Below are positions 26,157-44,580 of a stretch of 64,000 nucleotides of DNA, piece by piece; position 1 is the first letter of the stretch; every line of letters begins with the position of its first letter. A program made the translations under genes and the position numbers. The notes below the pieces were generated by a model. The model was not told where the DNA came from and did not search any database. It was given only the letters and a program-made list of their open reading frames with translations. Source of the stretch: Deltaproteobacteria bacterium Ga0077539 (GTDB lineage Bacteria > Myxococcota_A > Polyangia > Polyangiales > Ga0077539); assembly GCA_001465015.1 (NCBI GenBank), contig LNEO01000200.1, positions 1-64,000 on the forward strand, given 5' to 3'.

Positions 26157-26175
26157 TTCGAGTTGCTCTCTTCGG

Positions 26176-26247
26176 AGGCGCGGATGGGATTCGAACCCAC
26201 GTATGGAGGTTTTGCAAACCTCTGCCTGACCACTTGGCTACCGCGCC
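26176..26247 (-). tRNA. tRNA-Cys (GCA)
   Basis: On the minus strand the acceptor stem GGCGCGG pairs with CCGCGCC, followed by discriminator U as expected for tRNA-Cys. The anticodon stem GAGGT/ACCTC closes the loop TTGCAAA with anticodon GCA. The T-arm reads GTGGG-TTCGAAT-CCCAT. The 3' CCA is not encoded (CCG follows the discriminator), so it must be added after transcription. Confidence 0.96.
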
Positions 26248-28109: not shown

Positions 28110-28829
28110 ATGGCCGCGACCAAGACCGCCCCCCGACGTCCCCGCCCCGCTTCGATCCTCGAAGAGACGTTTACGAGCGAGGGGCGCAACTGGCTCTGGC
28201 GCGAAGGCCCCAGCGTACTGCCCGAGCGCTATCGCGCGGCGGGCGATCAAGCGCGCGAGGAGCTGCGGGCGCTGTTCGTTCGCAAGCTCGTTCCTGCCAT
28301 GGAGCGACGCGGGATCGCAGGCGAGGCCGTCAGCGCCGCGACGCCCTCGGGTATCGCCGCCGCGGACGTGCGGTGGATGAAGTGGTTTCGCGCCGACGAA
28401 GGCCAGTCGCCGCTCTGGGGACTGTTCGTTCAGTCGCGCGTCTTCGACTCCAACGACGCCGACAACGACACCTGGGTGCTCGTCGCGTGGGGCGACGGCC
28501 CCGCGCTCGCCTGGGTCTCGGACACGGCGCTCGCGCAGCGTTGCCTGCGCGCTGCGCTCCATGCTCCGCCCGCCTTCTTGAGCGGCGGCCTGCTCTCCCG
28601 AGACCCCTCGTTCGCCGTGCGTCTCGAGCGCACGACCCGCAGCGACAGCCGCGCGCGAAAGAGCGCCACCACCGCGCGCAAGTCCGCGCTCGTCGGAGCC
28701 GATCAAGAAGCAGGCCCCGACTCCCCACATCGGACAGCGTCGCGCGCGGCCGCGCCCGGCGACCGCCCCGCCGGAGCCCACGCGATCCTGGCAGCGTGGC
28801 GCCGCGCCAACCCGGCGCGCTCGGCCTGA
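28110..28829 (+). CDS. Soluble protein of unknown function
   Basis: A 239-residue protein without signal peptide or membrane segment. The first 150 residues look like a folded domain with several Trp (NWLWREGPSVLPERY, RWMKWFRADEGQSPLWG, WVLVAWGDGPALAWVS); the last 70 are Arg/Ala/Ser-rich and probably disordered. I do not recognise a family. A GTG directly before the ATG at 28110 is an alternative start. The kinase gene follows after 80 bases. Confidence 0.6.
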   Translation: MAATKTAPRRPRPASILEETFTSEGRNWLWREGPSVLPERYRAAGDQAREELRALFVRKLVPAMERRGIAGEAVSAATPSGIAAADVRWMKWFRADEGQSPLWGLFVQSRVFDSNDADNDTWVLVAWGDGPALAWVSDTALAQRCLRAALHAPPAFLSGGLLSRDPSFAVRLERTTRSDSRARKSATTARKSALVGADQEAGPDSPHRTASRAAAPGDRPAGAHAILAAWRRANPARSA

Positions 28830-28887
28830 GCGGTCTCCCGCGGGGACCGCTGCTCGCAACAAACGCCCGCTCTCCAAAAGACCGTGA

Positions 28888-28893
28888 TAGCGT
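28888..28893 (+). promoter_or_regulatory. Candidate -10 element TAGCGT for the tail-anchored kinase
   Basis: TAGCGT lies 16 bases before the ATG at 28910. No ribosome binding site is visible between them and no clear -35 is seen. Confidence 0.3.
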
Positions 28894-28909
28894 GGCGCTC
28901 CGTTTGTCG

Positions 28910-30316
28910 ATGACGTCCAGCCGTTCCTCGTGGAGGCCCTCCGGCGCCGGTTCCGACGGAACGGTGATGGTCACCCACCGTTACGAACCGGTCGCCGAAA
29001 TCGGCGTCGGTGGAATGGGCGCGGTCGTCCTCGCCCGAGCGCTCTCGGGCCCGAGCGCCGGCGAGTACGTCGCGATGAAGCGCTTGCTGCCGCACCTCGC
29101 GCAAGAGCCCGAGGTGCTCAAGGCGTTTCTCGACGAGGTGTACGTCATCTCGGCGATGCACCACCCGCACATCGTCGAGTCCATCGATTGGGGCGAAGAC
29201 CGCGACGGGCGCTTTCTCGTGATGCAGTTCGTCGCGGGCGACTCGCTGCGCGCCCTCGTTCACGCGCGCGAGGCCGCCCAGGCGCCGCTCCCGACAGACT
29301 TCATCGCCGAGGTCGTCGCTTGCGCTGCGCTCGGGCTCCACGCCGCGCACACCGTCGAGGCCGAGGGGAGAGAACTCGGGATCGTTCACCAAGACGTCTC
29401 GCCAGCAAACGTGCTCGTCGGCTACGACGGAAGCGTCAAGGTCATCGACTTCGGCGTCGCGCGCATCCTCTCGCGCGGCGAAGACTCCAGCACGCAGACG
29501 ATCCGCGGAAAGTTCGGCTACATGTCGCCCGAACAAATCCGAGGATTCTCCCTCGATCACCGCTCGGATCTGTTCTCGCTCGGCGTCGTGTTCTGGGAGG
29601 CGCTCACGCTCTGTCGGCTCTACCAGGCGAAGGACGAGTTCGAAGTCGCTCGCCTGGTCATCAACGAAGAGCCCGTCTCTCCCAGCGAGATTCGCCAGGG
29701 GATCGACCCAGCGCTCGACCGCATCGTCCTGCGATGCCTCGCGAAGAACCTCGACTACCGCTACGCCGACGGACGCGAGCTCGCGCGGGACCTCGAGCCC
29801 TTTCGACCGCCCCCCGCGCAGCGCGCAGAGGTCGTCGCCCACGTCACCCGCCAGTCGATGCCCGAGCGCTTCGCGTGGATCGAGAGCGTCACCAAGCGAA
29901 GCCTCAAGATCCCGCCCCGAACGATCGAGATCGAGCAGCCGAGGCCCCTTCGACCGAGCCAGAATCAGCTGCCAGTCGCGCCCGAACACGCGACCCCGAG
30001 CGCTCAGCCGACGCAGCAGACCGCGGCGCCCGTCGCATTTGCTCCCACCCCCGCGGCCGCGCCGACCGCGAGCGCCGCGCAAGCTCATCAGATCCTCGGC
30101 GCTCCCGCGTCTCCGTCTGCGCCCTCCACGCAGCCGATGCCCTCCGCGCAATCGACCGCGATCGCGCCCACCCGCGGTTCGACCGCGAACAAACCAGCGC
30201 CCAGCGCTCCGAAGAAACCAGCCGCTCGTCCGATGAACATCGGCGTCCGGATCGGAGCGCTCGCCGCGATCGCGATCGTCGCCCTCGTGATCGGACTCGT
30301 GCTCGGCAGCCGCTAG
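28910..30316 (+). CDS. Tail-anchored Ser/Thr protein kinase with HQD catalytic loop
   Basis: A 468-residue protein. The kinase domain spans about residues 22-295: IGVGGMGAVVLA, VAMKRL, IVHQDVSPANVLVG, IDFGVAR and MSPEQI. The catalytic loop has Gln in place of the Arg of HRD while keeping the Asp and Asn, so it may be an activation-loop-independent ('non-RD') enzyme. A Pro/Ala/Thr linker of about 100 residues leads to a single helix at the extreme C-terminus (IGALAAIAIVALVIGLVLG), leaving almost nothing outside the membrane. An ATG at 28966 is an alternative start that would remove a Ser-rich N-terminus. Confidence 0.86.
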   Translation: MTSSRSSWRPSGAGSDGTVMVTHRYEPVAEIGVGGMGAVVLARALSGPSAGEYVAMKRLLPHLAQEPEVLKAFLDEVYVISAMHHPHIVESIDWGEDRDGRFLVMQFVAGDSLRALVHAREAAQAPLPTDFIAEVVACAALGLHAAHTVEAEGRELGIVHQDVSPANVLVGYDGSVKVIDFGVARILSRGEDSSTQTIRGKFGYMSPEQIRGFSLDHRSDLFSLGVVFWEALTLCRLYQAKDEFEVARLVINEEPVSPSEIRQGIDPALDRIVLRCLAKNLDYRYADGRELARDLEPFRPPPAQRAEVVAHVTRQSMPERFAWIESVTKRSLKIPPRTIEIEQPRPLRPSQNQLPVAPEHATPSAQPTQQTAAPVAFAPTPAAAPTASAAQAHQILGAPASPSAPSTQPMPSAQSTAIAPTRGSTANKPAPSAPKKPAARPMNIGVRIGALAAIAIVALVIGLVLGSR

Positions 30317-30436
30317 CGCAAAGCCGTGATCGATCGCAGCCGAGGTCGGGAGAAGACACGCCACGAGCGCAATCGGGCGCGTGTCGCCAACCGAAGGCGC
30401 AGCCACGATAGTTCGACTTTCGCCGCGAGAATCACT

Positions 30437-30455
30437 GGATGACCGTAGGTCATCC
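30437..30455. terminator. Stem-loop between convergent genes
   Basis: GGATGACC, a three-base loop and GGTCATCC form a perfect eight-pair stem between the kinase (ends 30316) and the sigma-54 activator (ends 30463 on the other strand). There is no T-run, but position suggests a bidirectional terminator. Confidence 0.4.
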
Positions 30456-30462
30456 GTATCGC

Positions 30463-31863
30463 TCAACGAGAACGCGACGAGCGGAGCGACGCGAGGTCGA
30501 TGTTGTGCTTCTTGTAGAGCTCGCGCAGGTACCGACGATGAACGCCTGATCGTCGCGCAGCTTCGGAGAGGTTGTAGCCGCTCTCGATGAAGAGCTTCAT
30601 CAGGTACTCCTTCTCGAAGGTGTCGACCGCGAGCTGCTTGGCGTCTTGAAACGGCAGCCCCGTCGATGCGAGCGCGGCCACCGAGAGCCCGCCGGGCGGG
30701 ATCGTCGCAGGCACCGCGCTCATCGCGGTGTTGGTCGGCTCGTTGTTCTCTTCGAGCTCGTCGAACTCGTCGTCGTCGACGTCGAGCTGGTTGACCAGCA
30801 CCCCAGGACCGCCCGCGAGCATCACCGCGCGCTCGACGATGTTTCGCAGCTCGCGCACGTTGCCGGGCCACTCGCGGGCCTCGAGCTGCGCGATCAGGTG
30901 TGGCGAGAGCGTCGCGCCGAGCGACGCGGCGAAGTGCTTGGCCAGAATCGCGATGTCTTCGACTCGACTGCGCAGCGAAGGCGTCTTGATCCGCGTGACC
31001 GCGAGGCGAAACAAGAGGTCCTTGCGAAATCGTCCCGCTTCGACCTCGGACTCGAGCGAGCGATTGGTGGCCGCGATGATCCTCACGTCCACAGGGACGT
31101 AGCTCTCGCCTCCGACCGGCTTGACCTGCCGCGCTTCGAGCGCGCGCAAGAGCGCGGGCTGAAGGTCCAACGGCAGCTCGCCGATCTCGTCGAGAAACAG
31201 CGTGCCGCCGTGCGCGCGACGAAAGGCTCCTTCGCTCGATCCCGTGGCGCCCGTGTACGCGCCCTTGGTGTGACCAAACAGCTCGCTCGCGATGAGCGTC
31301 GGGGAGACCGCGGCGCAATCGAAGACGACGATGGGCTTGCCGGCCCGCGGCGATCGCTGGTGAATCGCGCGCGCGACGACCTCTTTGCCCGTGCCGGTCT
31401 CGCCTTCGATCAGCACGGTCAGCGTCGTCGGCGCCACGCGCTGCACCGTCGAGCGCAGCTTCTGAATGGACGCCGAGGCCCCCACGAACTCATCGAGCTC
31501 GGCTTTCTCGCGGGACTCGTCGACGACGCGGATGCGGATCGAGATGTTCTTTCCCAAAACGAGCGTCGCTTCGGAGCTCACGGGCAGCTCGCGGATCCGC
31601 GCGCCTTGAAAGTGGGTCCCGTTCTTCGTGTCGAGGTCCGCGACCTCGACGCCGTGCGGAAACACCCGAATCTCCAGGTGATTGCGCGAGACAAACGGAT
31701 CGTCGATCACGATCTCGTTGTTCGCGTCGCGTCCGATGCGCACTACGCCCTCGCGCACCTTCAGCAGCTGGGGATTGCCCGGCGATTGCACCTCGACGGT
31801 CCTCGTCGGCGGTGTCTTCAGTTTGAGCGCGAGCGCAGTGACGGTCTTCCCGTCGTCCGTCAT
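30463..31863 (-). CDS. FHA-domain sigma-54 activator (enhancer-binding protein)
   Basis: A 466-residue regulator. Residues 25-115 form an FHA domain (VRIGRDANNEIVIDDPFVSRNH, split here as VRIGRD and DPFVSRNHLE), which binds phosphothreonine. Residues 130-360 are the AAA+ sigma-54 interaction domain: Walker A GETGTGKE (about 152), GAYTGA (about 200) that contacts sigma-54, Walker B TLFLDEIGELP, and an arginine-finger region. A Fis-type helix-turn-helix closes the protein (YNLSEAARRSGVHRRYLREL). In myxobacteria FHA-type activators link Ser/Thr kinases to sigma-54 promoters, and a kinase gene lies next door. TACCTT ends ten bases before the ATG. A sigma-54 promoter serves the lipoprotein gene just upstream. 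Confidence 0.93.
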   Translation of the reverse strand: MTDDGKTVTALALKLKTPPTRTVEVQSPGNPQLLKVREGVVRIGRDANNEIVIDDPFVSRNHLEIRVFPHGVEVADLDTKNGTHFQGARIRELPVSSEATLVLGKNISIRIRVVDESREKAELDEFVGASASIQKLRSTVQRVAPTTLTVLIEGETGTGKEVVARAIHQRSPRAGKPIVVFDCAAVSPTLIASELFGHTKGAYTGATGSSEGAFRRAHGGTLFLDEIGELPLDLQPALLRALEARQVKPVGGESYVPVDVRIIAATNRSLESEVEAGRFRKDLLFRLAVTRIKTPSLRSRVEDIAILAKHFAASLGATLSPHLIAQLEAREWPGNVRELRNIVERAVMLAGGPGVLVNQLDVDDDEFDELEENNEPTNTAMSAVPATIPPGGLSVAALASTGLPFQDAKQLAVDTFEKEYLMKLFIESGYNLSEAARRSGVHRRYLRELYKKHNIDLASLRSSRSR

Positions 31864-31873
31864 GACGCGACAG

Positions 31874-31879
31874 AAGGTA
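31874..31879 (-). promoter_or_regulatory. Candidate -10 element TACCTT for the FHA activator
   Basis: On the minus strand TACCTT lies ten bases before the ATG at 31863, implying a very short leader. No -35 is evident. Confidence 0.3.
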
Positions 31880-31969
31880 TCAGACTTCGCCGCCCCAACA
31901 GCGAAGCGATTTGCGTCCCTCGGGCGGGCGCAGGTCGAATTGCCCCTCAGCCCCCCCCCTTCTATCGGG

Positions 31970-32860
31970 TCAGCGAACGCTCGCTTCGCAGAGCGTCTGA
32001 ACCAACGAATTCGCTCTCGGGCACAGCTCCGCGGCGCGCGCCGCGAGCCTTTGCCGCGCAATCTCCGCCGACGGCCCTTCGCTCGAGCGGACCGCTGCGC
32101 TGCGCACGTCGCCTGGCGTTCGCTCACGAGCGATCGAAGCAGTGCTCGAGCCCGCGACGTCGATCGCGACGTCGGTCGCGCTCTGTGTGGCTTCGACGCG
32201 CATCGCGGCGTCGGCGACCCCAGCGCCGCGCAGGCGCGAGCTCGCGATCACGACGGCCAACGCGTCGGCGTCCGCTGCGCCCTCGAGGCCTTCGCGGGCA
32301 AAGGCGCGGAGCGCGTCGAGCTGAACCCTCGCCCGCACCGCCCGCGTGTCGAGCCGAGCGGCGTGCTCGACCGCGTCGAGGTCCGACGCGCGCATGGGGT
32401 CACGGCGAAGGTGCTCGACGTGGTGGGCACGGGCTGCGGCGTTGGCGAGCGCGGCCTCGCGCGCCGCGGCGATCGACAGGTCGAACCAGCGACCCAGCCC
32501 TGCGCGGCGGGCGGACGTCATGCGCTCAGTGCGCGCGCGGCGGCCGATCGTCTCGCTGAGCCGATCCACCAGGTCGAGCTCGGCGCGAAGCAGGCCATCG
32601 ACGCTCGAGCCGCCGAGCTGCGCGACCTCCTGGCACCGCGCGGCGCCGGGCTCATCGAGCCGCAACACGCATCGAACCGCGTCGAGCGCCAGCTGCTCGG
32701 ATGCGTACACGCGAGGCTGCGAGGCCTCTGCCCCGGAGCTCTGCGCAGAAAGCTCGGTGCCGGACCGCGGCGCGGCGCTCTCGGAGCAAGCCGAAGCCGT
32801 CAGGGCCAACCACATCATCGAAGAACCGATCACGGCGCGCGATGAACGTCGAAAAATCAT
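31970..32860 (-). CDS. Helical lipoprotein controlled by a sigma-54-type promoter
   Basis: A 296-residue lipoprotein: MMWLALTASAC ends in a lipobox. The mature protein is almost all Ala/Arg/Glu-rich helix with a few Cys (AVRCVLRL, AARCQEVA, ELCPRANSLVQTLC) and no known domain. The ATG at 32860 has GAGGGAGAG upstream at good distance. A -24/-12 element (32912-32927) lies about 50 bases before the start, and the next gene on the same strand encodes an FHA sigma-54 activator, so autogenous control of the pair is plausible. Confidence 0.68.
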   Translation of the reverse strand: MIFRRSSRAVIGSSMMWLALTASACSESAAPRSGTELSAQSSGAEASQPRVYASEQLALDAVRCVLRLDEPGAARCQEVAQLGGSSVDGLLRAELDLVDRLSETIGRRARTERMTSARRAGLGRWFDLSIAAAREAALANAAARAHHVEHLRRDPMRASDLDAVEHAARLDTRAVRARVQLDALRAFAREGLEGAADADALAVVIASSRLRGAGVADAAMRVEATQSATDVAIDVAGSSTASIARERTPGDVRSAAVRSSEGPSAEIARQRLAARAAELCPRANSLVQTLCEASVR

Positions 32861-33272: not shown

Positions 33273-34328
33273 ATGAACAACCGACTGCTTTCTGCCAGCT
33301 GCGCTCTTTTGACTGCGATGTCGCTCTCGAGCGCCGCGTGCCGCGAAATGACGCCGCCGCCCAACGACGTTCCGTCGGCGGACGCGACGACGACCGATCG
33401 CCCCGACCCGTCCGACGTCCAGGGAAACGACGTCCAAACGCCTCCCGTCGATGGCAGAGCAGAAGGCGGAATGGACGGCGGCGGCTCGGTCAACCTCACG
33501 CTGCGCCAGCTGCAGGACATCACGGATCCCGCGCACCCGATGCCGCGCGCCCGCGTCAACCTCGTGCAGCCCGACCTCGTCGCGCTCAGCGGCCGCATCG
33601 TGACGAGCAGCGCCACGGCGTCCGACTGTCGCTTCGCGGTGTGGGTCGGCACGGCGACGGGCGGTGATTTCGCAGGCGTGCAGGTGCAAGAAGTGGTTCC
33701 GCGCGGAGCGGCCCGGAACTGCTTCGACGCGATGCTCGTCCGCAAGATCCCGATGGACATCGCGCCGGGCACGCGCGTCACGTCGGTGATGGACGCTTCG
33801 TTCGGCGAGTTCTGCGCGGGCCCCACCGGCAGCAACCCCGCGATGTGCCGCAACTTCGAGCTCACCAACCTCTTTCTCGGCGCGGCCACCGCGGCGATCA
33901 ACACGATGGGCGCAGGCACCGCTCCGACGCCCAGCGACGTCAGCGCCGCGGATGTGGGTCAGGGCGCCATGGGCGTGCTCGGAATGCGCACGCTCGCCCG
34001 TGAAGGCACGCTCGTTCGCATCCCGATGTCCAACGTTCGCGTGACCACGACGGTGCAGGACGCCGGCTCGTCGTTCACCAACGTCTATCTCGTCGATCCC
34101 ATGGACGCGACGCGGTCGATCGAGGTTCAGATCTCGAACTTTCCGAGGACTGACTGCGTTCGCTCGTACTTCTCGGGTCGCAACATGATGAGCCAGGGAG
34201 CGGTCACAGGCATTCTCAACCCCGACTTCGGCGTGTGGAAGATCCGCGTCCGCAACGAGATGGACATCCAGGGACTCGACTGCAACACCGACGGCGGAGC
34301 GATGGACGCCTCGAGCGGCGGCGGCTGA
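33273..34328 (+). CDS. Exported lipoprotein, beta-rich, function unknown
   Basis: A 351-residue lipoprotein: MSLSSAAC is the lipobox. An Asp/Pro/Thr linker follows, then two beta-rich halves of about 120 residues that each look like an OB-type or jelly-roll unit (VNLVQPDLVALSGRIVTS and MSNVRVTTTVQDAGSS begin comparable stretches). Four Cys in the first half may pair. GAGAGG stands before the ATG at 33273. The NuoH-like chimera starts 40 bases after the stop and probably shares the transcript, so the two may work together in the envelope. Confidence 0.7.
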   Translation: MNNRLLSASCALLTAMSLSSAACREMTPPPNDVPSADATTTDRPDPSDVQGNDVQTPPVDGRAEGGMDGGGSVNLTLRQLQDITDPAHPMPRARVNLVQPDLVALSGRIVTSSATASDCRFAVWVGTATGGDFAGVQVQEVVPRGAARNCFDAMLVRKIPMDIAPGTRVTSVMDASFGEFCAGPTGSNPAMCRNFELTNLFLGAATAAINTMGAGTAPTPSDVSAADVGQGAMGVLGMRTLAREGTLVRIPMSNVRVTTTVQDAGSSFTNVYLVDPMDATRSIEVQISNFPRTDCVRSYFSGRNMMSQGAVTGILNPDFGVWKIRVRNEMDIQGLDCNTDGGAMDASSGGG

Positions 34329-34368: not shown

Positions 34369-36378
34369 GTGGGGGACGCGAAATCCGCTATTCGCGCGAA
34401 GGTGAAGCACCCGCGCAACGCTCTGGCAGCGGCCGTGACCGCGGCCTCGCTCTTCGGCATCGGCTGCTCTTCGCAGAGCGCCGTCGACATCCTGCGCGTC
34501 AGCGACATCGGGCCGCGCCAGGTCGAGATCGGCGATCGGCTCGAGGTGACAGGGCAGCATTTTCCGCAGGCATCCGAGCTCAAGCGCGTGCGCCTCACGT
34601 TGCGCGCGACGCTCGCGCGCGGCGGGATGGCGCCCTGCGCCGCGCCCGTCGAGGTGACCATCACCGATCCGCCCGAAGGCGCGAGCGAGTTCGACCCGAT
34701 CAGCCAGCAGATGCGCGAGGCCACCTACGCGCGGACGTCGCAACGGACGCTGCGGCTCGACGGCCCCGATCGCGTCGCGCTCGTGCTCACCGAGCGGCTC
34801 TTCGAAGAGCTCACCCGGTGCCCCGGCGACCGAGGCGCGCCGCCCGTCGATCACGCGACGCTCTCCTTCGGCAGCGCGCACGCGCGCTACGCGCGGCTCG
34901 GCGTCACCGTTCGCTTCGAAGGCACCACCGGAACGCACGCGATCGAAGGCACCCTCCGCGGCGCGACCCTCGACCTGCTCGCTCCCGCCTCGAGCCGCGT
35001 TTTGCGCGTCGATCCCCTGCGCCGCCGCAGCGCCCGCGTCCTCGACGCGCTCGGCGTGACGCTCGCGGACGCCCACCCCACCAACGGCGGCCTCCGCGTC
35101 GCATCGGTGCGCAACGGCGGACCCGCAGCGCGCGTGGGCATCGGCGCCAACGACGTTCTCACGGCGGTCGACGGTCTCTCTGTCCTCGCGATCGAGGACA
35201 TGGCCGTCCCAGAAAACACCCGCGCCGTGCGCCTCGGCGTCGGCCGCGACGACATCATCGACGAGCGCGTCGTGGCGCTCGACGGCTTCGCGACGGCGTC
35301 TCCGACGGACATGCTCGCGGCGTGCATCATGGGCCTCGTGGTGATGATCCTGCTCGCCCTCGGGCTGCGATCGGCGCCCGGCATGTTGCCTTCGCTCGGT
35401 CGAATCGCCGAGCGCGCGCTCGGCGGAGGAGAGCGCGGCGCGCTGGGCCCCTGGCTCACCGAGCGCCTCCGCGACGCCGTGCGCGGTCGTTCGAAGCACG
35501 AAATCATCCCGTACGTCGTCCTCGCAGCGCCGCTCACAGCGCTCGGGTTTGCGCCGTTCGCTCCCGCGCTGTTGCGCCTCGGGTGGGACATCGGTCTGCT
35601 CTACGCGCTGGGCACGGGGCTACGACTCGTCTCGGGCCCTGCCCTGTCGTGGAAGAGCCTCTCGCGCGTGTTGCCGATCTCCATCGCGACCATCCTCGCC
35701 CTCGCCACCTCCGTGGTCGCGAGCGGAACCTTTCGCGCCGAAGGCGTCGTCAGCGCGCAAGGCGGCGCGCCGTGGGCGTGGCACGCGTTTCGATCTCCCT
35801 TCGCCGTCGCGTTGTCGGTGCTCTTCGTCGTCGGCCTCTGCGCAGGCGCTCCGCAACGTCGGCCCGCCAGCGAGCGAGCATCCCGCGTGGCGCTCGCCAA
35901 GGACATCGCTGGCTGGACCGGAACCTTTCTCGCCTCGTGCTCGGGCGTCACCGCGTTCTTCGGCGGCTGGCAAGTGCCCGGCACAGACCTCGGCCAACAA
36001 GAAGCCTCGGCAGCACTGCAAATGTCCGGCGCCGTGCTGTTCGTCTCCAAAGCGTGGGCGCTCACGATCTGCGCCGCGTGGCTTCGTTGGACAGGCTCGT
36101 ACGCTCGCTCGCAGGCGATCGTGCAGCGGTCGGCGCGCGCCATCCTCGTCATTTCCGTGTGCGCGGCGCTCGCGCACGGCGTGATCGTGCTCTCGGCGCC
36201 TCGGCTCCCGCAGGTGGCCGGCTTCGCGCTCTCGACCGCCACGTTCGCCCTCACGCTGATCGCGATCGTCGCGTCGCTCCTTCGCCCGCGTGCGCAGCGG
36301 CTCTGGGGACTTACGAGCTACGATCCGCCAGCGTTTCGCCGAGCCGACGAGACCGTCGCGGATCACACGACGCACTGA
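34369..36378 (+). CDS. Lipoprotein/PDZ protein fused to a NuoH-like membrane domain
   Basis: A 669-residue chimera. LFGIGC near residue 33 is a lipobox. Residues 40-210 are beta-rich. Residues 215-300 form a PDZ-like domain (GGLRVASVRNGGPAARVGI, NDVLTAVDG). After a helix near 310 and a linker, residues 370-640 resemble subunit H of complex I in order: WDIGLLYALGTGL, a helix pair, ASGTFRAEGVVSAQGG, then VTAFFGGW and SKAWALTICAAWLRWTGS. The acidic quinone-chamber loop of true NuoH is absent. No other Nuo or hydrogenase gene is near. The GTG at 34369 has no clear ribosome binding site; the GTG at 34402 would give a tighter lipoprotein signal. Confidence 0.75.
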   Translation: MGDAKSAIRAKVKHPRNALAAAVTAASLFGIGCSSQSAVDILRVSDIGPRQVEIGDRLEVTGQHFPQASELKRVRLTLRATLARGGMAPCAAPVEVTITDPPEGASEFDPISQQMREATYARTSQRTLRLDGPDRVALVLTERLFEELTRCPGDRGAPPVDHATLSFGSAHARYARLGVTVRFEGTTGTHAIEGTLRGATLDLLAPASSRVLRVDPLRRRSARVLDALGVTLADAHPTNGGLRVASVRNGGPAARVGIGANDVLTAVDGLSVLAIEDMAVPENTRAVRLGVGRDDIIDERVVALDGFATASPTDMLAACIMGLVVMILLALGLRSAPGMLPSLGRIAERALGGGERGALGPWLTERLRDAVRGRSKHEIIPYVVLAAPLTALGFAPFAPALLRLGWDIGLLYALGTGLRLVSGPALSWKSLSRVLPISIATILALATSVVASGTFRAEGVVSAQGGAPWAWHAFRSPFAVALSVLFVVGLCAGAPQRRPASERASRVALAKDIAGWTGTFLASCSGVTAFFGGWQVPGTDLGQQEASAALQMSGAVLFVSKAWALTICAAWLRWTGSYARSQAIVQRSARAILVISVCAALAHGVIVLSAPRLPQVAGFALSTATFALTLIAIVASLLRPRAQRLWGLTSYDPPAFRRADETVADHTTH

Positions 36379-36425: not shown

Positions 36426-37721
36426 TCATGCGCGCGGGAGGGTGACGCGGACGCGCGTTCCGCCAGCGTCGAGGGCGGTGATCGAAAACGTTCCGCGCAG
36501 AAGCTCGATGCGCTCGCGCATGCCGTCGACGCCGCGGCCCGAGCGCTCGCCGCTTCGGTCGTAGCCGCGCCCGTCGTCCTCGACCTCGAGCTCGATCGTC
36601 CGGTCCTTCTCGCAGAGCGAGACACGCACGCGCCGCGCGTTTGCGTGCCGTGCCACGTTGGTGAGCGACTCCTGGACGATGCGATACAGCGCGACCTCGA
36701 TCGCCGGCTCGAGCCCGTTCGGCGCGTCGATCGAGCGCTCCGCGATGCACCCGGTCTGCTCGCAAAACGCGTCGATCGCCCGCGAGAGCGAAGCCTCGAG
36801 CCCCACCTCGTCGAGCACCGCCGGACCCAATCGGGCGAGCGAGCGCCGCAGCTCTTCGAGCGCCGCGTCGGTCGTCTCGGTGACTCGAACGAGCACTTCG
36901 CGCTGCTCTTTCGCGGCGCCCTCGTCGGCGAGCTCCGCCGCGAGCTGCGCGTGGATGCGAATCGCGGTGAGCGCCTGCCCGACCGAGTCGTGAAGGTCGC
37001 GACCGATCGCGCGGCGCTCGTTTTCTTGCAGCGTCACGGCGCGCGCAGCGGTGGCCTTGAGCTCGACGTACGCGCGGTCGAGCGCTTCGGTGCGCTCTGC
37101 GACGTCGCGCTCGAGCCCCTCGTTGAGCGTCGCGAGCTCTGATCGCGAGCGCTCGAGGTCCGAGACCAACGCGACGATCCGCGACGCGGCGCGGGCGGCG
37201 GTCCGAATGGACAGGGCGTACACGAGCCACCCGAGCACGATCGACAGCGTCGAGAACACCGCCAGCAGAACCAACGACGCAGCCCGCAGCGGCGAAAGCG
37301 CCATCGCGACCCAGACCGTCCCGACGGTCTGTCCGCGGACGCGGACCGCGCGATCGCACCACACGAGGGCGGAGGACGACGGAGGCGCACCCGCGGCGAC
37401 GCCGGCGTCGTCGTACACCTGCATCGCAGCGACGGCCGCGCGCGATCGCAGCGCGCGCAAGTGCGCCACGATCTTGATCGAGTCGTACCGCCACAGACGC
37501 GGTCGCTCTTGAGCCTCGCGCGAGAGGTCCTCTGCTGCCCGGGCGGCGATCGTCGTGCAATCCGCCCGGAGCTCTCGCACGCCGACGACGTGATGGGCCA
37601 CCGGCGCGCCGAGCGCGAGCAGCGTCGCGAGCGTCACCACCAACGGCGCGAGCCGCGCGCGCAACGGCGCGAGGAGCTCGTCGCCACGGGGCTCGGAGCT
37701 GGCGTCGTCACGCTCGGTCAC
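36426..37721 (-). CDS. NarL/DesK-type sensor histidine kinase
   Basis: A 431-residue kinase. Two membrane helices (about residues 24-46 and 145-170) flank an extracytoplasmic sensor of about 100 residues. A coiled coil follows (DLERSRSELATLNEGLERD). HisKA_3 dimerisation carries the phospho-His in RRAIGRDLHDSVGQAL (about 239), and the ATPase domain has LTNVARHANARRV, VEDDGRGYD and GRGVDGMRERI. Partners of this class are NarL-type regulators; none is adjacent. The GTG start overlaps the stop of the binding-protein gene (GTGA), so the sensor is coupled to that exported protein. Confidence 0.9.
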   Translation of the reverse strand: MTERDDASSEPRGDELLAPLRARLAPLVVTLATLLALGAPVAHHVVGVRELRADCTTIAARAAEDLSREAQERPRLWRYDSIKIVAHLRALRSRAAVAAMQVYDDAGVAAGAPPSSSALVWCDRAVRVRGQTVGTVWVAMALSPLRAASLVLLAVFSTLSIVLGWLVYALSIRTAARAASRIVALVSDLERSRSELATLNEGLERDVAERTEALDRAYVELKATAARAVTLQENERRAIGRDLHDSVGQALTAIRIHAQLAAELADEGAAKEQREVLVRVTETTDAALEELRRSLARLGPAVLDEVGLEASLSRAIDAFCEQTGCIAERSIDAPNGLEPAIEVALYRIVQESLTNVARHANARRVRVSLCEKDRTIELEVEDDGRGYDRSGERSGRGVDGMRERIELLRGTFSITALDAGGTRVRVTLPRA

Positions 37722-38617
37722 GGCGCGCCTCCTTGCGGCTCGACCGTGAGAAATCCGCTCTCTTCGATGATCGACTGCCCCGCGTTCGACCGAACGAAGC
37801 GAAGAAAACTCTCGGCTAACGGGTGCGTGCTCGCGTGCACGAGCGCGACGAACGGCTTGACCAGCGGATAGCGACCCGTGAGCGCGTTTTCTCGGGTCGG
37901 CGCGACGCCGTCGAGCGCGAGCACGACGAGCGGTAGCCGGTCGATCGCGCTCGCCCCGAGGTCGGTGAGCCCGACGGAGCCGGTCGTCGACAACAGGGAG
38001 AAGCGAAGCTCGACGTCTGAATATAGAACACGAAATCGAGTCGCCTCTTGCGCCTCGCGCTCGGCCTGGCGAAATCCCGCGACCCTCGCGACGGCCGCGC
38101 GATGACTCGAGTCGCCTCGCTCGCGAGAGAGAAAGACCCGCGGCGACCCGTCGCTCCACGCGCTCGGCTCACCACGCAAGAGCGCCACCAGCGCCGCGGT
38201 GCTGATCGATCGATCGACGACCGCGGGGTGCGCGGCGAACACCACGACGGACCACGCGTAAGGGTGTTGAGCGAGCGTCGCCGCAGGCCCCGAGCGCTCT
38301 TCGGGCGACAGCGGCCGAGAGAGCAGCCCGATGTGCACGGCGCGATCGCGCACCGCCTGCACCGCGCCAGTGCTGCCGATGCTCGCGTGCAGGACGAACG
38401 CGCCGCGCGTCTGCTCCCTCCACGCCTCGAGCAGCCTTCGGGTGAGCGGCAGGTTCGAGCCGGATCCTGCGACCTCGAGCGCCGCTTCGCTCGCGCGAAG
38501 GGTCGATGCGTTTGCACCGGCGCGGGGCGACGGTCGCGGACCGGACTCTGCGCCGATGGCGACCGCGAGCGCGACAGCCGACAGGGTCGCGGCGATCGCG
38601 ATCGACGGTCTGCTCAG
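37718..38617 (-). CDS. PstS-like substrate-binding protein
   Basis: A 299-residue exported protein. A signal peptide (SIAIAATLSAVALAVAIGAES) precedes LEVAGSGSNLPLTRRLLEAW, the anion-loop region of PstS-type proteins; IGSTGAVQAVRD, VGLTDLGASA and FLRFVRSNAGQSIIEESGF complete the match. It likely binds phosphate or another oxyanion. No Pst permease is near; instead it lies between a phosphoesterase and a histidine kinase, so it may present ligand to the sensor. No ATG or GTG fits: the CTG at 38617 overlaps the upstream stop (CTGA) and has GGGGGCGAG just before it. Confidence 0.8.
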   Translation of the reverse strand: MSRPSIAIAATLSAVALAVAIGAESGPRPSPRAGANASTLRASEAALEVAGSGSNLPLTRRLLEAWREQTRGAFVLHASIGSTGAVQAVRDRAVHIGLLSRPLSPEERSGPAATLAQHPYAWSVVVFAAHPAVVDRSISTAALVALLRGEPSAWSDGSPRVFLSRERGDSSHRAAVARVAGFRQAEREAQEATRFRVLYSDVELRFSLLSTTGSVGLTDLGASAIDRLPLVVLALDGVAPTRENALTGRYPLVKPFVALVHASTHPLAESFLRFVRSNAGQSIIEESGFLTVEPQGGAP

Positions 38618-39759
38618 CGCTCGCCCCCAGCGGCCTTGCGCTCGGGCTCGACCGCCACTTCTTCGCTGCGCTGCACGTCCCGTGAGCTCTGCGCGACGCC
38701 AGTCGCGTGCGTCCCAGTGATGGGCGGAACGCGCTTGGTGCTGTGCGGTCCGCTCGCGTCCGCGTCGCGCTTGACGCGATGGTGAACGTTCGGGGACCGA
38801 TGATGGGCGTCTGGCCTGGTCATCGGCTCGGCTGGCGTTCCCGCGCGGTGCAAGGGCGCCTTGGGCGCGACGCCCGCGTGCGGCGTCCTGCGCTCGTCCC
38901 ACGGCTGACCGTCCCGCCAACAGGCGTCACCGCTCGTGCCCCAGCCCGCGAGCACGGCCCGACCGTCCCGCCATTCGGTCCAGAACACGGCGCCATCGGG
39001 GCGCGAGGCCTGATCGAGGCAGGCGATTCGAGTCTCTGTTCCGTCCGCGTGACGAACGACGGTGGCGAATGGAACGTGCGAGTGTCCGCAAAACAGCCAA
39101 CGCGGACGCATGCGCTCGACGAGCGAGCGGGCGACCTGGTTGCCGATCCACGGCGTGTGAAACGCCCGAAAATCCTTGTGAATCCCGCGTGATGTCGCGG
39201 GCGCGCGCGACGCCAGCCCTCGCGGCCACTCGTGGGTGAGCACGATATCCGCGGTCGAGACCGCGTCGAGCGCTCGCACTTCGTCGTGCCGGAAGTAACC
39301 CGCCTGCCGACAAGCGTCCGGCGTCGTCGGCGGCAACAGCGGTTTGTCGACGTACCGAGGCGCGTAGATACCCGAGAGCCACGCGACGTCGAAACCCGAG
39401 ATCGACTGGGCGCCGACGCGACCGAGAAAGTGCATGTTCGGCGCGACGAGGCCACCCTCGGGCATCGAGTGCAACGCCTCGAAGTCCTCGTTGTTGCCGC
39501 CGATGAAGTGCAACGGCCGCTCGAAGGCGCATCGGCCCGAGACGTAGTCCGCGAACTCCGCGGGCATCGCCCGTTTGGCGGCCTTGCGCCGGTGATCGTC
39601 GGCCGTGAGAAAAGCCTCGATGTCGCCGACCGCCAGGACGAGCGTAGCCGAGCGCCCGCGGGCGCTCTCGAGCGCCGCGATCCACTCTCTCACGCGATGG
39701 AATCGGCCGTGAATGTCGCCGACCACCACCACGAGGGCACTCTTTGTGGCCTCGCTCAT
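38614..39759 (-). CDS. DBR1-like metallophosphoesterase with a GNNE motif
   Basis: A 381-residue protein. Metallophosphoesterase motifs: GDIHGR (14-19), GDIEAF (45-50), GGNNED (87-92), LTHEWPR (about 174-180) and GHSH (225-228). Several stretches follow eukaryotic lariat-debranching enzyme DBR1 in order: EGGLVAPNMHFLGRVG, WLSGIYA, FRHDEVRAL, DIVLTHEWPRG, RPRWLFCGHSHVPFA. The normally invariant His of GNHE is Asn here, although the other metal ligands are kept. The last 95 residues are polar and probably disordered. No signal peptide. It is first in an operon with a PstS-like protein and a histidine kinase, coupled by CTGA and GTGA overlaps. Confidence 0.82.
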   Translation of the reverse strand: MSEATKSALVVVVGDIHGRFHRVREWIAALESARGRSATLVLAVGDIEAFLTADDHRRKAAKRAMPAEFADYVSGRCAFERPLHFIGGNNEDFEALHSMPEGGLVAPNMHFLGRVGAQSISGFDVAWLSGIYAPRYVDKPLLPPTTPDACRQAGYFRHDEVRALDAVSTADIVLTHEWPRGLASRAPATSRGIHKDFRAFHTPWIGNQVARSLVERMRPRWLFCGHSHVPFATVVRHADGTETRIACLDQASRPDGAVFWTEWRDGRAVLAGWGTSGDACWRDGQPWDERRTPHAGVAPKAPLHRAGTPAEPMTRPDAHHRSPNVHHRVKRDADASGPHSTKRVPPITGTHATGVAQSSRDVQRSEEVAVEPERKAAGGER

Positions 39760-42105: not shown

Positions 42106-42852
42106 ATGATCGAGTTCAAGGAGATCCGAAAAGCGTTTGGCCCGAAGGTCGTCCTCGACGGCGTCGACTTGACGATCCGTGACGGTGAGGTGTTCTTCAT
42201 CATCGGCTCGTCGGGCGCAGGAAAATCCGTGCTCATCAAGCACCTGATCGGCCTGCTCAAGCCGGACTCGGGCGAGATCTGGCTGGACGGAGACGACGTC
42301 TCCAAGCTCGACGAAGCGCAGCTCTATCGAATCCGAAAGGTGTGCGCGATGGTGTTTCAGCACGCCACGCTCTTCGACTCGATGACGTGCGCCGAAAACG
42401 TGGCGCTGCCGCTACGCAAACACCGAGGCCTCTCGCCGAAGGACGCCTTGCACGAGGCCAAACGACGGCTCGAGCAGGTGCACATGGCAGAGTTCAGCGA
42501 GCGGTTTCCCGCCGAGCTCGGCGACGGAATGCGAAAGCGCGTCGCCATCGCCCGCGCGCTCACGGTCGACCCGCGCTACGTGCTCTTCGACGAGCCGACG
42601 ACCTCGCTCGATCCGGTGAGCGCGCGGCGGGTGGACAAGCTCATTCGCGAGCTCAGCGACAAGCTCGGCGTCACCTCCATCGTGGTGTCGCACGACCTCA
42701 CCTCGATCTTCTCGATCGCCGATCGCGTCGCGTTTCTCTACAAAGGTCGGCTCCGAAAGGTCGGCACGCCCAAAGAGTTTCTCGACGATCAGGAGGACCG
42801 GATCGTCCATCAGTTCATCCGCGGCGCGGCGGATGGACCGATGGAGGTGTGA
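42106..42852 (+). CDS. MlaF-like ABC ATPase with altered signature motif
   Basis: A 248-residue ATPase: Walker A GSSGAGKS (34-41), Q-loop MVFQHATLFD, Walker B VLFDEPTTSLDP and switch His in VVSHDLTS. It is MlaF-type throughout, including the C-terminal VHQFIRGAADGP strip shared with the ATPase at 2349. The signature is LGDGM (138-142) rather than LSGGM/Q, so the Ser that contacts the ATP gamma phosphate is Gly and the next Gly is Asp. Turnover may be impaired. The MlaD-like gene begins 39 bases downstream; no permease is next to it. Confidence 0.9.
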   Translation: MIEFKEIRKAFGPKVVLDGVDLTIRDGEVFFIIGSSGAGKSVLIKHLIGLLKPDSGEIWLDGDDVSKLDEAQLYRIRKVCAMVFQHATLFDSMTCAENVALPLRKHRGLSPKDALHEAKRRLEQVHMAEFSERFPAELGDGMRKRVAIARALTVDPRYVLFDEPTTSLDPVSARRVDKLIRELSDKLGVTSIVVSHDLTSIFSIADRVAFLYKGRLRKVGTPKEFLDDQEDRIVHQFIRGAADGPMEV

Positions 42853-42891
42853 GATTTCCTGAAGTATTCCAGCTACGATCGAGGATCAGCC

Positions 42892-43908
42892 ATGGCCGCG
42901 ACCAAATCGATCGAAGTGAAGGTCGGGATGTTGATCCTGGTGGGCGTCTCGCTGCTCGCCGCGCTCATCCTCGTGATGGGCGGGATCACGTTTCAAAAGC
43001 GCTTCCCGCTCTACGTCGACTTCGAAAACCCTGGCGGGATCCAGCCGGGAGCGCCCGTGAAGATGGCTGGCGTCCGCGTCGGCACCATCGAAGCGCTCGA
43101 GTTTCGCGCGTCGCCTCCGGATCCTCTCACCGGCCGTCGGACGCTGGTGCGCGCGAAGATCCTCGTCGAAGAGCGGTATCACCGCGAGATCCACCGCAAC
43201 GCGGAGTTCTACGTCACCACGCAGGGCGTGCTCGGCGAGCAGTTTCTCGCGATCGATCCGGGCACCGGCAGCGATCAAATCGCGGCCGGCACGATCGCCG
43301 TCGGGATGGGGCCGCCTCGCATCGACCTGTTCGTCGCGCGCGCCTATACGCTGCTCGACGAGGCGGTCGCGGGCGTCGCTTCGAACCGCGACCAAATCCG
43401 CGGGATCGTCCACAACCTCGCCGGAACGCTTCAGCACACCAACGATCTTCTGGCGCGCAACGGCTCGCGGATCGATCGGCTCATCGAAGACACAGACCAG
43501 CTGATCCGTGACGGCGACGGGCTCGTCAACGCGGCGCGCGCTCGGTACGTCGACGGCGCAGAAGTGCGCAGGATCATGGCGCGGGCCGAGAGCGTGCTGG
43601 CGACGATCGACCGAGAGGTCCCGCCGCTGTCACGGGACGCGCGGGCGCTGATGGCCAACGCCAACCGCATCGCCAGCGGGATGGGGGACGCGCAGATTCA
43701 AGACGTTCAAGCGGCCTTGCGCGACGTGCGGTCGATCGCGCGAAGGGCAGACTCGATCGCGGGCGACGCCCAACGCGTGAGCCAGAACATCCGTCAGGGC
43801 CGCGGGACTGTGGGCGCGCTGCTCATGGACGAAGAGGTCTACGACGACCTGCAAGAGCTCGTGCGCGACCTCAAGCACAACCCGTGGAAGTTCTTCTGGC
43901 GCGAGTAG
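42892..43908 (+). CDS. MlaD-like MCE-domain protein
   Basis: A 338-residue protein with one N-terminal membrane helix (VGMLILVGVSLLAALILVMGG), an MCE domain at about residues 38-125 (VDFENPGGIQPGAPVKMAGVRVG, cited here as NPGGIQPGAPVKMAGVRVG, and TTQGVLGEQFLAIDPG), and a long helical C-terminus that probably forms a tube or coiled coil. MCE proteins form hexameric rings that carry lipids between membranes. This is the only MCE protein in the window and would be the natural partner of the three permeases. The ATPase gene is directly upstream. Confidence 0.9.
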   Translation: MAATKSIEVKVGMLILVGVSLLAALILVMGGITFQKRFPLYVDFENPGGIQPGAPVKMAGVRVGTIEALEFRASPPDPLTGRRTLVRAKILVEERYHREIHRNAEFYVTTQGVLGEQFLAIDPGTGSDQIAAGTIAVGMGPPRIDLFVARAYTLLDEAVAGVASNRDQIRGIVHNLAGTLQHTNDLLARNGSRIDRLIEDTDQLIRDGDGLVNAARARYVDGAEVRRIMARAESVLATIDREVPPLSRDARALMANANRIASGMGDAQIQDVQAALRDVRSIARRADSIAGDAQRVSQNIRQGRGTVGALLMDEEVYDDLQELVRDLKHNPWKFFWRE

Positions 43909-44489: not shown

Positions 44490-44573
44490 GCGAGCGTGGC
44501 GGAATTGGCAGACGCACTGGATTCAGGTTCCAGCGGGGTAACACCCGTGAAGGTTCAAGTCCTTTCGCTCGCA
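44490..44573 (+). tRNA. tRNA-Leu (CAG)
   Basis: Acceptor stem GCGAGCG pairs with CGCTCGC, discriminator A. The anticodon stem CTGGA/TCCAG closes TTCAGGT with anticodon CAG. The long variable arm (CGGGGTAACACCCG) is typical of tRNA-Leu, and the T-loop reads GTTCAAGTC. The encoded 3' end is CTA, so CCA must be added or repaired. Confidence 0.96.
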
Positions 44574-44580
44574 CTAACGT

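Follow-up and report, generated by a model that had tools for sequence, protein, structure and literature searches.

The question raised by this locus is why a NuoH-type membrane core, normally the quinone-site subunit of complex I, is joined to a secreted PDZ head in a region where complex I genes are missing. The region is a stretch of 64,000 nucleotides, here called the window. A preliminary description took the fused gene for a chimera and proposed that it might sense envelope tension or quinone.

Domain layout of the fusion

The gene uses a GTG start and has zero internal stops, and a second GTG at codon 12 is a possible alternative start. The features along it are the following.

34369-36378 (+): whole gene of 669 aa, comprising lipoprotein signal, beta domain, PDZ domain and degenerate NuoH domain (ORF call, Pfam, orthologues)
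34369-34467 (+): signal peptide and lipobox with Cys33 (sequence; Cys33 in the family alignment)
34480-35013 (+): beta-rich domain, residues ~38-215 (IPT/TIG-like by motif; secondary structure from a low-confidence model)
35014-35283 (+): PDZ domain, residues ~216-305, with the Pfam core (residues 228-272) at 35050-35184 (Pfam; HtrA-type PDZ matches in the PDB)
35296-36318 (+): NuoH-derived membrane domain, residues ~310-650 (Pfam, profile-profile comparison, PDB profile search)
35734-35799 (+): kept periplasmic loop TM4/5, RAEGVVSAQGGAPWAWHAFRSP, residues 456-477 (alignment with complete fusions)
35845-35916 (+): site of the lost acidic TM5/6 loop, residues 493-516 (alignment with complete fusions)
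35962-35982 (+): kept GGWQVPG of TM6 and periplasmic loop 6/7, residues 532-538 (alignments)

The open frame and the Pfam matches bear out the earlier view that lipoprotein signal, beta domain, PDZ domain and NuoH-type core form a single protein. The lipobox (..LFGIGC33) is found in most members of the window's family, and Cys33 is invariant in the seven members aligned, as are G453, Q464, P468, W469, P477, G532, P537, K561, and W563. By its signal peptide and lipobox motif the protein qualifies as a bacterial lipoprotein, with lipidation predicted. The PDZ matches of the window protein stand near the Pfam cut-offs: PDZ_2 (PF13180) is matched over residues 228-272 with E=4.5e-6 and 27.3 bits against a cut-off of 27, and PDZ_6 reaches 26 bits against 27. 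Other members of the fusion score 33.2 bits (L017) and 35.1 bits (L052). The N-terminal beta domain gave zero Pfam matches up to E=10, IPT/TIG models included, and an AlphaFold2 model of the protein, built from three sequences, had a pLDDT of 33, too low for a fold search.

Identity of the membrane domain

Residues 434-601 match NADHdh (PF00146) with E=3.9e-7 and 30.1 bits against a Pfam cut-off of 27. A search of the PDB with the single sequence returned weak NuoH matches (E about 2), and a profile made from the degenerate family alone gave clear ones among the solved NuoH/NdhA chains (best E=1e-11, to NdhA). The same profile matched E. coli NuoH at 4.9e-10 over profile positions 304-593. Profile-profile comparison (hhalign) gave P=99.0 and E=7.8e-18 against canonical NuoH, and E=6.6e-33 over 329 columns against complete fused NuoH, with NuoL, NuoM, and NuoN as negative controls at P<=0.1. 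The homology of the membrane part to NuoH is therefore independent of one weak score, because the degenerate-family profile and hhalign both match NuoH. The profile searches placed the domain in NuoH, as first suspected, and in zero unrelated families; its NCBIfam matches were to NuoH models only, and none were to the Hydrogenase-4 or Ech subunits HyfC and EchB.

The window protein thus shares with NuoH/NdhA/ND1 (PF00146) a homologous membrane domain and its helix order, and retains the GGW, the TM7 lysine, and the TM7-8 arginine. It differs in being without the amphipathic-helix motif, loop 3/4, and the acidic loop 5/6, in not being encoded with complex I, and in bearing a secreted beta-PDZ head. 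The absence of the acidic TM5-6 loop (PFDLPEAESELV..EYSG in complete NuoH), already noticed by eye, is confirmed by alignment with the complete fusions.

Origin in a second complex I

In other orders of the class, a complete NuoH carries a head that consists of a signal or lipobox, the beta domain, and PDZ. Against PF00146, these fusions and the complete members of the window's own order score 374-386 bits. The complete fused NuoH of the other orders sits in nuoA, (B, C), D, H, I, J, K, L, M, N clusters, where nuoH directly follows nuoD with no nuoEFG in between. This is the gene order described for the 11-subunit type of complex I (PMC11238625), and the head-bearing clusters are assigned to that type from the nuoD-nuoH order alone. 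The complete fused relatives thus share the gene order of the described enzyme, which differs in that a PDZ-fused NuoH was not found described for it; it has apparently been lost in the window's lineage. A description of a PDZ-NuoH fusion was likewise not found in the open-access literature. The idea of a free-standing chimera unrelated to complex I does not survive this comparison: because relatives have complex I operons in which a complete NuoH bears the same type of head, the window protein is, judged by homology, a leftover complex I subunit.

Several variants of this arrangement are found. In L090 and L091 the beta domain is present on NuoH and PDZ is missing. Four shorter class-level matches (L066, L068, L070, L071) were considered as intermediates and ruled out, being complete headless NuoH in nuo operons. 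In three operon-borne fusions (L087, L096, L099), an EF-hand-like stretch recognized by eye (e.g., LDANGDGNIAQHEL) is inserted in the PDZ region; it has no Pfam match and is missing from the window's form. A canonical-type NuoH of another family (L078) carries an N-terminal signal and an Ig-like extension; a periplasmic head may have been gained there independently.

The NuoM of the second complex I also bears a head, made of a signal peptide and an N-terminal Ig-like domain (L096:14937-16913, L090:14301-16232, L128, L129). The L096 copy has a HYDIN-type (HYDIN/ASH) Ig match over the cut-off, and in G149, G153, and G102 such a NuoM is kept at a separate locus.

Distribution, selection and co-occurrence

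The fusion is present in 13/13 genomes of the window's family and, by single-sequence search, in 116/184 genomes of the order. A separate count with a head-only profile matched the beta domain and PDZ in 62 of the 72 genomes sampled from the order; beyond the class this profile gave PDZ-level matches only. The survey found the same single-gene fusion in more than 100 genomes and not as split halves, and these intact orthologues rule out two genes merged by a sequencing error. Between near relatives, dN/dS runs from 0.10 to 0.27 in the two head domains (beta and PDZ) and from 0.16 to 0.49 in the membrane part. Values of 0.1-0.5 show, at the codon level, that the fusion gene is under purifying selection.

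Searches with ten Nuo subunits (tblastn) found no nuo gene besides the fusion in the 64 kb window, in agreement with what had been reported from the sequence. The phrase "without any complex I genes" is accordingly right for the window and wrong for the genome, where canonical NuoH and other complex I genes lie on other contigs.

The relation between the fusion and the second complex I is best followed in the family f10. Among the genomes examined, 17 hold a complete fusion (PF00146 at least 369 bits), which lies outside any nuo cluster in all nine surroundings read (L041-L045, L047-L050). Other subunits are found elsewhere, as nuoABD without nuoH (L101-L109) or as nuoLMN (L128, L129). A second-type NuoD (57-65% identity to L092) occurs in 14/17 genomes with the complete fusion versus 0/39 others, and a second-type NuoM (56-63%) in 15/15 resolvable genomes with the complete fusion versus 0/12 without it. 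The NuoM co-occurrence has a Fisher probability of 6e-8, which overstates the evidence since the genomes are related and not independent. G081 (73% complete), where NuoM of any kind was not seen, was left out of this count, and G110 holds a divergent NuoM copy (43%) alongside a degenerate fusion. From these counts it follows that the head-bearing NuoH is complete in the presence of the complex and degenerate in its absence.

In the window's family, neither second-type NuoD nor second-type NuoM was found, nor any NuoM distinguishable from the canonical one; the absence of a second complex I rests on nine family genomes jointly, the window's own assembly being fragmented and 91% complete. In the tree, the window protein, the degenerate forms, the complete fusions, and the headless class-level NuoH are split from canonical NuoH by a branch with 100/99 support, and the cell's own canonical NuoH (L003) falls on the canonical side. 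The degenerate sequences are nested among the complete fusions of the order. A single loss event (94/97 in the tree) is not asserted, and the number of losses is uncertain because the degenerate sequences form long branches.

Side-specific decay of the membrane domain

In NuoH the N-terminus is periplasmic, and loops 1/2, 3/4, 5/6, and 7/8 are cytoplasmic. This topology was used to assign sides to the alignment columns conserved at 80% or more in 28 complete relatives. The window's family keeps 15% of the 85 cytoplasmic columns, 30% of the 50 transmembrane columns, and 66% of the 17 periplasmic columns, with periplasmic over cytoplasmic retention at p=7.8e-8. At columns conserved at 95% or more, the corresponding values are 16%, 36%, and 88%. 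The degenerate members of f10 follow the same trend, with 32% cytoplasmic, 57% transmembrane, and 80% periplasmic columns kept.

In complex I, NuoH builds the quinone chamber together with NuoB and NuoD (PMC8357420). The loops of the quinone site and peripheral arm (WERKVSGRMQSRIGPNR, SYE, PFDLPEAESELV..EYSG) are deleted or replaced in the window's family, with 10-15% of their conserved residues left (12% in the amphipathic-helix loop, 15% in loop 3/4, and 10% in the acidic loop). Against this trend, a few cytoplasmic arginines are kept in the window protein (R349, R573). The TM4/5 periplasmic loop, on the other side, is the strongest conserved segment of the membrane domain from the complete fusions through the degenerate forms. 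As read from these alignments, the face toward the quinone and the peripheral arm is lost, and the outer face, on the predicted side of the PDZ head, is retained.

Intermediates with NuoL-like and NuoM-like genes

In at least 11 degenerate lineages (L124, L125, L127, L132, L133, L135, L136, L137, L142, L144, L149), NuoL-like and/or NuoM-like genes come after the fusion, with neither redox subunits nor any further nuo gene. The ion-path residues of these H-L-M sets are mostly or wholly replaced: in NuoM, E352 is kept in 1/10, K451 in 0/10, and K482 in 1/10, with E624 also among the replaced residues; in NuoL, E232 and K369 are each kept in 0/10. Several other NuoL and NuoM residues are fully kept. 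Such sets resemble Mrp antiporters and other membrane-arm-only modules in holding homologues of the complex I membrane arm without redox subunits, but differ from them in the loss of the key proton-path Lys/Glu and in the presence of a NuoH-like PDZ subunit. In L142 (11100-14600), the NuoL-like and NuoM-like matches lie in one open frame of 1258 aa, apparently a NuoL-NuoM fusion.

Genetic neighborhood

The neighbors of the fusion are conserved no further than the genus or near family. In f10 (L044, L045, L047, L049, L051), complete and degenerate cases alike have an ABC ATPase gene upstream and a gene for an uncharacterized zinc-ribbon protein downstream. Reading a function from the neighbors was rejected, since synteny is limited to close relatives and these two flanking genes are seen in f10 alone. 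Two distant genomes (L127 and L053) have ATP synthase genes close to the fusion.

Within the window, a same-strand gene for a secreted lipoprotein-like product with no Pfam match (33273-34328, +) stops 41 bases short of the fusion gene; it is present in near relatives, where its adjacency to the fusion is not constant. A Ser/Thr protein kinase gene lies beside an oppositely oriented FHA-sigma54 activator gene (28373-32127), a pair conserved in close relatives. Convergent with the fusion is a HisKA_3 sensor kinase gene (36426-38920, -), whose preceding ORF resembles a periplasmic substrate-binding protein. The window also holds an ABC ATPase gene followed by an MlaD-family gene (42106-43908, +), a lipid transport pair of the Mla/Mce type, and two tRNA genes, tRNA-Cys(gca) at 26174-26247 (-) and tRNA-Leu(cag) at 44490-44574 (+).

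Proposed role and alternative explanations

The window protein is probably a NuoH that has been taken out of respiratory service and now anchors a periplasmic PDZ head to the inner membrane, acting as a scaffold or receptor. NuoH would have gained a secreted, PDZ-containing head and later lost the rest of the complex together with the electron-transfer face. The protein would reside in the inner membrane. Its PDZ head and lipidated N-terminus would be on the periplasmic side, the side on which NuoH has its N-terminus. No longer handling electrons, quinone, or protons, the polytopic core would serve as an anchor, while its periplasmic surface, probably the AQGGxPWxW loop, may dock or position the head. 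The PDZ groove could then bind an envelope partner through its exposed or C-terminal peptides. Purifying selection maintains the head, the AQGGxPWxW..F..P and GGWxxPG loops on the periplasmic side, and a small number of membrane residues (K561). In HtrA/DegS-type periplasmic PDZ proteins, as is expected of the window protein, the PDZ domain is periplasmic and membrane anchored; the window protein, however, is without a protease domain and is anchored by a polytopic core derived from NuoH where those proteins use a single helix. A wider version, of somewhat less than even probability, is that in these soil myxobacteria complex I acquired a periplasmic superstructure (beta-PDZ on NuoH, Ig-like on NuoM), which came to have a function of its own; once the redox and pumping parts had gone, the membrane arm (H-L-M at first, later H alone) would have stayed as a non-redox, non-pumping scaffold in the periplasm.

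The sensor proposed in the preliminary description, in which the NuoH core would bind quinone or respond to membrane tension and signal via the PDZ head, is unlikely. The overall NuoH fold is retained and a sensor kinase gene adjoins the fusion, but the losses fall on residues at the quinone chamber and the peripheral-arm interface, which disfavors a quinone sensor, and the kinase gene is convergent and conserved in close relatives only. A periplasmic sensor or scaffold role is plausible. The H-L-M sets, together with the secreted Ig-like head that NuoM bears as well, would fit a redox-free H-L-M module that translocates ions and energizes the periplasmic head; this is quite improbable, as such NuoL and NuoM were not found in the window or in the genomes of its family and the sets have lost their proton-path residues.

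It is very doubtful that the fusion serves the cell's canonical complex I, either as an accessory subunit or as an alternative one. The genome does encode that complex, but with a canonical NuoH both present and intact; the fusion is an orphan without the loops that face NuoB, NuoD, and quinone, and the two types of NuoH stand far apart in the tree. Decay into a functionless remnant might explain the very long branches and the heavy loss of conserved NuoH residues. It is hardly credible for a frame that stays open in more than 100 genomes, has dN/dS well below 1 in all mature domains, and keeps specific residues invariant across the family.

Implications

The fusions form a natural series of NuoH proteins in which the fold is kept and the quinone site is gone, with graded steps visible from the full complex, through the H-L-M remnant, to H alone, kept for its outer face. 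Automatic annotation as an NADH dehydrogenase subunit would mislead for the degenerate proteins. If the reading of a superstructure on complex I is true, the result would be a novel type of envelope protein, built out of a respiratory enzyme. Because a core respiratory subunit can be seen parting from electron transfer step by step, a periplasmic side function of complex I in these bacteria becomes a testable question.
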